From Halolamina sp. CBA1230 (GTDB lineage Archaea; Halobacteriota; Halobacteria; Halobacteriales; Haloferacaceae): a stretch of 64,000 nucleotides of DNA. A model generated the notes under the pieces. It did no database searches, was not told the origin of the DNA, and saw only the letters and a list, made by a program, of their open reading frames with translations. The translations under genes were made by a program, and so were the position numbers. The stretch's first letter is position 1, and each line of letters begins with the position of its first letter. Where the stretch lies: positions 558,001-622,000 of the forward strand of contig NZ_CP054587.1 in NCBI RefSeq assembly GCF_002025255.2. Direction: 5' to 3'. Of the stretch, positions 26,584 through 58,802 are shown in pieces.

Positions 26584-27462
26584 TTAGCGCGCGATCGCCC
26601 AGAATCGGACGCTCTGGGGCACTTTCCACAGCACGTCCGGCTTATCACTCTCTTCAGGGTCGTTGTGTTCCACTTCGTGGTTGTGGTGTTCGAGCAGTCG
26701 CCGAACCTCGAAGCCGGCGTCGACGAGGCCGTTGTGGAGGTCCGCAACCGTCCGGTCGAAGACGGTCAGCGTCTCCTCGTAGTTCTCGTCGATCACGATC
26801 TCACGCGGCCCCGGATCGACGTAGCTCTCCGCGAGCGTTCCCGTCTCAGGGTCCAGCGCCTCGTTGAGCGGGTGCATCACGCTGAACACGAACACGCCGC
26901 CCTCGCGGAGGACGCGGTGGGCCTCCGCGAACGCGCGATCCACGTCTTCGACCATCTGGAACGCCGCCTCCGAGGAGGCCACGTCGAAGCGGTCGTCCGG
27001 CAGCGGGAGGTCGGTCACGTCGCCCTGCACGAACCGCGCGTCGACGTCACCAGAACGCGAAGCGTTCTGGTTGTCACCGGAAGCCGTCGGCTTCCGGTTG
27101 CCCGAGGGACGTAGTCCCTCGATGGCAGACGAGAGCCTGTGGCTCTCGTCGACGCCGTACTCGTCGCGGAGCTGTCTGGCGTACCGGAGCTGTTCGCCCG
27201 AGAAGTCCACGCCGACGACCGGATCGGCGCCCAGTTCCGCGGTGCCGACGCTCCCCTGCCCGCCGCCGCAGCCGAGTTCGACGTACGATTTCCCCTCGAC
27301 GCTCTCCAGAATCTGCGGTTGTGGGCCGCCGGGAGCGTCTTCGGCGAACGGGGAGGGTGCGGGTGGAAGCTCACCTTCGTCGGTGTCCGAGCGCCAGATC
27401 GCCTGGAAGTCGTCACTCCACTCGTCCCAGGCTCGTCGGTTCGACTGACGGAGGTCGCTCAC
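26584..27462 (-). CDS. SAM-dependent methyltransferase with a hairpin-derived insert
   Basis: This class I methyltransferase has 292 residues. Motif I is VELGCGGGQGS (about 61-71), the acidic residue after beta-2 is in VVGVDFSGEQL, and DVTDLPLPDDRFDVA and HRVLREGGVFVFSVMHPL mark the later motifs. Residues about 105-140 (ESHRLSSAIEGLRPSG... region) break the expected run between DEYGVD and ARFVQGDV. They are encoded by four consecutive perfect hairpins (27049-27150). The insert is in frame, so the protein may still be made. GTG 27462 has a TATA-like cgtaaag at 27484-27490. The substrate is unknown. Confidence 0.82.
   Translation of the reverse strand: MSDLRQSNRRAWDEWSDDFQAIWRSDTDEGELPPAPSPFAEDAPGGPQPQILESVEGKSYVELGCGGGQGSVGTAELGADPVVGVDFSGEQLRYARQLRDEYGVDESHRLSSAIEGLRPSGNRKPTASGDNQNASRSGDVDARFVQGDVTDLPLPDDRFDVASSEAAFQMVEDVDRAFAEAHRVLREGGVFVFSVMHPLNEALDPETGTLAESYVDPGPREIVIDENYEETLTVFDRTVADLHNGLVDAGFEVRRLLEHHNHEVEHNDPEESDKPDVLWKVPQSVRFWAIAR
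27049..27150. repeat. Four chained perfect hairpins with 3-nt loops inside a coding sequence
   Basis: The four hairpins are 27049-27071 (10-bp stem around CCAGAACGC, loop gaa), 27076-27098 (ACCGGAAGCC, loop gtc), 27103-27121 (CGAGGGAC, loop gta) and 27128-27150 (GACGAGAGCC, loop tgt). Spacers are 4-6 nt. The block is about 105 nt, a multiple of three, and so keeps the methyltransferase frame. Confidence 0.92.
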
Positions 27463-29844: not shown

Positions 29845-30140
29845 ACCGCGACGGCAACAGCATCTCGATGCTTGACCACTTGTGACCGCAGGGTGCCGGG
29901 CACGAGGCCCGGCACGGTATGGAGTCCCCACCCCTCCCCCCGCGCTCGCGACCGTTGCGAGCGCGAGGCGTCCACCGCCACCGCACCGCCGTAGCTGTCG
30001 GCGCGAAGCGCGAGTCCCTCCGTGGACGAGCAGGCGCGAGGGACGAATGAGCGAAGCGAGTGAGTCGGCTGGGGAGGTCTGTGGGCTGTGCGGGGCGGTT
30101 GCGGTCACAAGTGGCCATGCTCACTCCGCGGTCCTGTCGG
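29845..30140. mobile_element. Non-coding hairpin-rich element with terminal inverted repeats, copy 1
   Basis: The left end (29845-29890) and right end (about 30100-30140) are imperfect inverted repeats sharing ccacttg-tgaccgca. Inside are perfect hairpins: GTGCCGGGC (29893-29901) with GCCCGGCAC (29907-29915), CGCGCTCGC (29941-29949) with GCGAGCGCG (29957-29965), and GTCCCTC (30014-30020) with GAGGGAC (30038-30044). No convincing gene is present. The copy at 50581-51006 is the same element in reverse. It is classed as mobile by inference (MITE-like) only. Confidence 0.65.
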
Positions 30141-50580: not shown

Positions 50581-51006
50581 GGACCGCGACAGCAACAACA
50601 TCTCGAAGCATGACCACTTGCGACCGCAACCGCACCGCACAGCCCTCAGACCCCCCAGCCGACTCGTTCGCTCCCGTCTGTCGCTTACTCGCCCTCCGAG
50701 AGAGCGGAGCTCTCTCGTGCCCTCGCTCGTTCCACTCGCGAGGACCTCGCGCCTGCTCGTCCACGGAGGGTCGTGCGGGCGACCCACGTGTCGCCCGCAC
50801 TGCCAGCGGGACCTTCGGTCCCGCCCTGCTCGCGCTTCGCGCCGACAGCGACGGCGGTGCGGTGGCGGTGGACGCCTCGCGAGCGCCAATCAGGCGCTCG
50901 CGGGGGGAGGGGTGGGGGCCGTATGCTGTGCCGGGCCTCGTGCCCGGCACCCTGCAGTCGCAAGTGTCCTACGAACGAGATGCTGTTGCTGTCGCTGTTG
51001 CGATCA
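50581..51006. mobile_element. Non-coding hairpin-rich element with terminal inverted repeats, copy 2 (inverted)
   Basis: Ends at 50581-50628 and about 50953-51006 are imperfect inverted repeats (shared core cacttgcgac). Internal perfect hairpins are 50697-50717 (9 bp, loop gga), 50773-50800 (11 bp, loop ccacgt), 50806-50824 (8 bp, loop ttc), 50878-50902 (10 bp, loop aatca) and 50928-50950 (9 bp, loop ctcgt). A 52-nt block (about 50829-50880) matches copy 1 (29963-30014), reversed, with one mismatch. No gene is supported. It is longer than copy 1 by about 130 nt. Confidence 0.7.
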
Positions 51007-58640: not shown

Positions 58641-58802
58641 GATCAGTCGCCCTCGCCGGCTGACAGCGTGCCTACACCAGAAATCGGAGATTTCTGGTTG
58701 GCGAACGAGAGCCGGTGGCTCTCGTTAACGGCGAGACCAGTCGTCCATCGCGGCAGACCGTCGCCGCGATGGTCAGTCGCTCCGCCCGGCTGACCGCGTG
58801 CC
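58641..58802. repeat. Three-hairpin block between 32-bp direct repeats
   Basis: Direct repeats lie at 58641-58672 and 58771-58802 (26 of 32 identical, core tcagtcgc...ggctgac). Between them are ACCAGAAATC-gga-GATTTCTGGT (58676-58698), AACGAGAGCC-ggt-GGCTCTCGTT (58704-58726) and CCATCGCGGC-(8 nt)-GCCGCGATGG (58745-58772). The second hairpin almost repeats the fourth hairpin at 27128-27150. The right repeat ends 8 nt before the nhaC stop codon. Confidence 0.85.

Follow-up and report, generated by a model that had tools for sequence, protein, structure and literature searches.

A four-hairpin palindromic insert in a haloarchaeal methyltransferase gene and a related family of 57-nt hairpin dimers

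The methyltransferase gene and its insert

The window analysed here, a stretch of 64,000 nt from Halolamina sp. CBA1230 (NZ_CP054587.1, positions 558,001 to 622,000), includes a class I methyltransferase gene of 879 nt on the minus strand that carries four chained hairpins in its reading frame (Table 1). A preliminary description had reported four perfect stems at 27049–27150 with 3-nt loops and 4–6 nt between them, and these lie exactly as placed (10, 10, 8, and 10 bp; gaps of 4, 4, and 6 nt). The span then given is inside the open reading frame and has a length divisible by three, but at 102 nt it is shorter than the insert bounded by homologues (108 nt, 27046–27153), which on the window strand begins with GTC and ends with GAC.

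Table 1. Positions of the gene, the parts of its insert, and a further dimer copy, numbered from the first nucleotide of the window
Feature	Position	Strand	Basis
Class I SAM-dependent methyltransferase gene (Methyltransf_11/25) carrying the insert	26584–27462	-	ORF; Pfam PF08241, 4e-21
Whole insert (VDESHRLSSAIEGLRPSGNRKPTASGDNQNASRSGD), 108 nt, 36 codons	27046–27153	-	Exact gap in protein and DNA alignments, 10 homologues
CGTC tag, outer end of hairpin A	27045–27048	+	C/G/T/C at 98/83/98/97% in 116 dimers
Hairpin A, ACCAGAACGC-GAA-GCGTTCTGGT, 10 bp	27049–27071	+	
TG, left part of the outer dimer's TGGCA spacer	27072–27073	+	
Nested 51-nt element, 17 codons, two hairpins (CCGGAAGCC and CGAGGGAC types), at TG|GCA	27074–27124	+	Pattern match
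Hairpin ACCGGAAGCC-GTC-GGCTTCCGGT, 10 bp	27076–27098	+	
Hairpin CGAGGGAC-GTA-GTCCCTCG, 8 bp	27103–27121	+	
GCA, right part of the outer dimer's spacer	27125–27127	+	
Hairpin B, GACGAGAGCC-TGT-GGCTCTCGTC, 10 bp	27128–27150	+	
Second CGTC tag (GACG on the + strand), outer end of hairpin B	27151–27154	-	
Second 57-nt dimer copy, tag variant CTAC...AACG, judged non-coding	58673–58729	+	

A 116-nt region at the insert has a folding energy of −78.8 kcal/mol compared to −41.4 ± 4.0 kcal/mol for dinucleotide shuffles (z = −9.4, 0/200 shuffles), which bears out the early impression that such stems exceed what codon use would produce. Triloop hairpins with stems ≥10 bp numbered 64 in 464 kb of host DNA and 2 in third-order Markov sequence, a comparison in which the 464 kb are stretches picked around matches and hence enriched. 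About 35 residues had been expected to be missing from homologues; exactly 36 are, corresponding to a 108-nt gap in the DNA, and none of ten homologues (0/10), several of them from the host genus, has the insert. An insert conserved in distant homologues with changed codons would have spoken for an old part of the protein whose palindromy is an accident of codon usage. Such conservation was not seen among the ten and, though the insert is in frame and polar as an old protein part might be, its absence from all homologues, the folding statistic, and the repetition of the same sequence in unrelated genes leave that reading with a negligible probability.

The insert interrupts a methyltransferase, as first described, but is located between two motif blocks, the first and the one that follows, and not within an invariant block. 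It falls between a predicted helix and the following strand, near an alignment gap to the solved relative 3bkw; in class I methyltransferases the cofactor site is at the other edge of the sheet. A predicted structure of the protein (mean pLDDT 41.6) was too poor and was left out of the evidence. Copies within genes are probably tolerated as surface loops. An 8-nt direct repeat, CGTCGACG (27039–27046 and 27147–27154), was considered as a target duplication and ruled out by empty sites, which show that the repeat is formed by the element ends meeting a GTCGAC target.

The preliminary description spoke of a palindromic repeat unit inserted in frame. The in-frame palindromic insertion stands, but the chain is composite and not one four-hairpin unit: a 57-nt dimer with a second, 51-nt dimer inside its spacer (57 + 51 nt, each with two hairpins). 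The same nesting occurs at locus L037, where pattern matching places a 51-nt dimer in the spacer of another dimer at TG|CCA, and a similar 108-nt composite is present in a HAD hydrolase gene (L038). The four hairpins and 108 nt are the outcome of insertion of the 51-nt dimer into the spacer of the 57-nt one.

The 57-nt dimer, its stems, and its distribution

The layout of the common unit was read from 20 host stretches around insert-search matches and consists of CGTC, hairpin A (AYCAGAANNC, 3-nt loop), TGGCA, hairpin B (RACGAGANNC type, 3-nt loop), and RACG, with a length of 57 nt from GTC to RAC. Among 116 copies, the left end follows the profile given in Table 1, the right end is A or G followed by A (97%), C (99%), and G (91%), and the hairpin centres are mostly 27–28 nt apart. 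The CGTC tags face outward on both sides, and the family mostly occurs as dimers. A further GTC/GAC stem that would close the dimer on the outside was rejected, as its positions do not covary. The insert is very probably a small, non-autonomous mobile palindromic dimer, REPIN-like in character.

The two stems are 98–100% paired in 18 aligned copies (16 distinct), with changes on both sides of a stem in 43 cells and on one side in a single cell (shuffled mean, 16 both-side), and the covariation score was reached in 0/500 shuffles. In a larger set of 73 copies, gathered by anchors in the 5′ arm such that pairing was not required, the 730 pairs of hairpin A comprise 724 Watson-Crick, 1 G-T, and 5 other pairs, and the 730 pairs of hairpin B comprise 694 Watson-Crick, 8 G-T, and 28 other pairs. 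G-U pairs are expected in an RNA structure. The paired substitutions, together with the near-absence of G-T pairs, therefore point to palindromy kept at the level of DNA and not RNA. Hairpins acting as RNA (terminators, processing sites, or regulatory stem-loops), with the in-gene copies as by-products, would fit the strong RNA folding and the predominance of non-coding copies in the host, but would be expected to show G-U pairs and one-sided changes, and such a role is considered quite improbable.

The loops occur as reverse-complement pairs (GGA/TCC, GAA/TTC, and AAA/TTT), suggesting either inversion of the hairpin or correction from arm to arm. Both this and the perfection of the palindromes could be expected if they had formed in place, by template switching or hairpin correction during replication, with no transposition involved; the recurrence of one two-arm unit, its ends fixed, at many unrelated sites and in many genera argues against it, and formation in place is a very improbable origin. 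For a mobile dimer, correction in place may nevertheless be the reason that the stems stay perfect.

The preliminary description proposed searching the host genome for the stem-loop pattern, and a covariance model recovered about 50 related elements, of which almost all lie on the main chromosome; a smaller contig gave one weak match. A search with the insert matched 27 places, and a stricter exact pattern matched 28 copies, all chromosomal (reversed control pattern, 0). Most host copies are non-coding. Apparent coding clusters at chromosome positions 971761, 983373, and 1222643 were rejected as chance hairpins that do not contain the element sequence.

Within the Halobacteriales, 258 of 293 genomes representing 82 of 87 genera had matches; outside the order there were only three genomes, all of one genus and with weak matches. 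The element is carried on 18 plasmid records (haloarchaeal among those listed), so the family is not confined to chromosomes elsewhere, and in halophilic archaeon DL31 an annotated transposase CDS runs through a copy. A scan of viral contigs gave no match to the A-hairpin pattern. One 1.9 Mb genome from another family of Halobacteriales (G069) had 35 matches among 37 scored candidates, unusually many for its size. Separately, long chains of 5 to 9 different hairpins, partly shared between loci and non-genic, occur at G000 C1 1230977–1231180, 1631907–1632136, 2325054–2325310, and 2651858–2652006.

Target sites, proposed movement, and known palindromic elements

Empty sites, all of them comparisons between species or paralogues, bound the dimer exactly. 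An insert of exactly 57 nt in the host TruA gene is missing from all six congeners, TnpB genes that are roughly 90% identical differ in length by precisely 57 nt at TGAGAC|GGCAGAC, and one genome (G102) has a TnpB with the 57 nt and another without. The target duplication at the TnpB and TruA empty sites is 0–2 bp, with 2 bp indistinguishable from none because the flanks are C|G; the several base pairs expected of a DDE-transposon MITE were not found at these sites (≤2 bp). By our count, at least 13 host dimers are located inside a hairpin of a different, two-hairpin repeat of about 150 nt, and the dimer prefers hairpins of other repeats as its target. This companion repeat, with a CCCCACCCCTCCCCCC run between its two hairpins, is found in the window at 29874–29983 and 50860–50969, with many copies in the stretches read.

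The TnpB comparisons also bear on whether the element consists of the joined ends of an IS605/IS1341-type transposon, making it a terminal-only PATE, with the TnpB copies marking its origin. Two TnpB families in many genera do hold the dimer near the C-terminus, and terminal-only PATEs of 52 bp have been reported in Haloquadratum (PMC3119063), but the closely related TnpB genes that lack exactly the dimer indicate insertion into TnpB, and the orientation of the dimer is opposite in the two families. An origin from fused transposon ends is accordingly held to be unlikely.

Movement of the dimer is proposed to begin during replication, when an exposed strand lets the dimer fold as single-stranded DNA, after which the folded intermediate would be cut and joined by a transposase acting in trans. 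IS200/IS605-type Y1 transposases recognise hairpins and insert without duplication, and genes for them are present in the host genome, which together make them the best candidates; an IS200/IS605-type HUH (Y1) enzyme would be the most likely mobiliser, though its action in trans on the dimer is put forward as a plausible but tentative proposal. No Y1 transposase gene at, or flanked by, the elements was found in the host genome. In bacteria it is the RAYTs that act on REPs. Archaeal Y1 proteins have been reported only in the IS200 subclass, with the RAYT classes not reported in Archaea (PMC6006769). Given the possible 2-bp duplication, an IS110- or IS607-type enzyme may be responsible instead. 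Leaving the enzyme aside, the whole explanation (a family of mobile dimers, nesting, and tolerance within genes through selection on frame) is considered likely.

The likeness to Rickettsia palindromic elements, noted at the outset, extends to an outer tag and a dimer layout in common with RPE-4 and RPE-6. These R. conorii elements belong, with Neisseria dRS3, to the CGTC-tagged REPs (Di Nocera 2013, PMC3733652), and a comparison based on described layout and not consensus sequences finds that both groups have outward CGTC tags on a dimer (HH), often of two different hairpins, no linked transposase (for the dimer, host-genome Y1 genes were checked), in-frame copies of about 20–30 aa with clusters encoding more, and tRNA pseudouridine synthases among the host genes. 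The CGTC-tagged REPs are bacterial and have stems of 8–9 bp with loops of 4–5 nt (PMC3733652 Table 1), whereas the dimer is archaeal with 10 bp and 3 nt (9 bp and 5 nt only when the near-invariant closing C-G is assigned to the loop), a 5-nt TGGCA spacer, a near-fixed length of 57 nt, and mostly one reading frame. The first stem positions, complementary A and T in the CGTC-tagged REPs, are AT or AC in hairpin A and mostly GA or AA in hairpin B, and where those REPs have a CCA-type tail, the shared spacer TGGCA reads TGCCA from the B side. Because of its stem and loop the dimer is not filed as a CGTC-tagged REP, though it works like one. CGTC-tagged palindromes, RPE-4 and RPE-6 included, have been catalogued without a linked transposase, and the haloarchaeal look-alike offers exact empty sites in an order that includes genetically tractable species (e.g., Haloferax volcanii), making repeat movement and protein tolerance testable.

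REPINs (Bertels and Rainey 2011, PMC3116915) likewise replicate as inverted REP doublets found mostly outside genes, but have a linked RAYT, where no Y1 gene in the host genome is flanked by elements, and a GTAG-type in place of a CGTC tag; the spacer of the dimer is also very short. SMR-A, the small mobile repeat type of Haloquadratum walsbyi that includes HqIRS42/43/55 (Dyall-Smith 2011, PMC3119063), also from the Halobacteriales, inserts inside palindromes of other mobile elements, much as the dimer inserts into the palindromes of its companion repeat, with no target duplication and an unexplained mobilisation; at about 110 bp with inverted terminal repeats, against the 108-nt composite here, it may be the same kind of element in Haloquadratum, set beside the dimer by description and not sequence. 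An archaeal palindromic repeat with coding potential fused into protein genes is cited in PMC2229807 (Suyama et al. 2005). Repeats fused into genes are therefore not new to Archaea, this precedent being from a different lineage and compared by description only. The species concerned is reportedly Methanocaldococcus jannaschii. No earlier description of the present family in haloarchaea was found in the literature searched, which is not proof of absence; the family appears to be new, as do its spread and its frame rule, with SMR-A and the Suyama et al. repeats compared by description only.

Copies within genes

Seven coding sites were identified in the host. Two are in a HAD hydrolase, and the others are in the methyltransferase, an S9 peptidase where two dimers stand in tandem (114 nt), TruA, a PF03458 membrane protein, and the tail of a ribbon-helix-helix protein. 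All seven have lengths divisible by three and all seven share one orientation and frame. In other genomes, the five clear cases of one set (5/5) and further copies use that same frame, in hosts including an ABC transporter, DnaK tails, an antitoxin tail, and an apparent shikimate kinase, names that are mostly our reading of the sequences. These copies were found with the structure model, hence with no frame bias, and a peptide search biased towards the used frame was left out of the count. About 15 of 16 independent gene insertions share orientation and frame by our count, the exception being one TnpB lineage with the opposite orientation and another frame. Assuming independence, the chance of 15/16 in one frame is near 1e-8 (frame share 0.24 among open frames), or about 3e-4 by our arithmetic if only the two most open frames are counted.

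The used frame encodes V-DESxxxSSANQNxSRSGD and has the fewest stops (6/71), with a hydropathy of −1.19 and a net charge of −0.7, compared to other frames that are basic, more hydrophobic, or more often closed. As the used frame is the most open, and is polar and slightly acidic, the bias is explained by selection acting after insertion, with no need for directed insertion. Both units are divisible by three (57 and 51 nt), and in the used frame the 57-nt unit usually contains no stop, such that gene insertions can stay in frame; selection would then retain insertions whose added peptide is polar and weakly acidic and falls in a loop or tail. Coding cases number 0/30 for a 56-nt variant and about 10/43 for non-TnpB 57-nt copies (Fisher p about 0.004), figures that are rough hand counts with the significance inflated by related copies. 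A shortened, decaying copy at one common site of thioredoxin reductase in two genera suggests long-term tolerance.

In archaeal proteins the dimers recurrently give rise to in-frame insertions, which annotation overlooks. A stronger version, held as doubtful, is that unit length (57, 51 nt) and sequence have been shaped such that a neutral, halophile-compatible peptide is encoded in one frame out of six, with which the family repeatedly enters genes and supplies new loops and tails (TruA, DnaK, antitoxins), moved by machinery not yet described in Archaea.

At L116 (around 2939–2985) and L081 (1501–1559), two different antitoxin-like proteins have a C-terminal tail made up of the element, with the next (toxin-like) gene directly after, and in two genomes (L228, L236) a DnaK-like protein contains it within an acidic tail at the C-terminus. 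The TnpB families with the dimer near the C-terminus (L087, L088, L090, L091, L094, L095, L097, and L098; L229, L230, L235, and L244) span many genera, in opposite orientations. In TnpB-type elements the guide RNA is usually encoded near the TnpB C-terminus, and the dimer there may be part of it. The right-end hairpin of related TnpB elements (L286, L289) holds another two-hairpin insert (GTCGGGC and GAGGGAC types), apparently a further family of the same kind.
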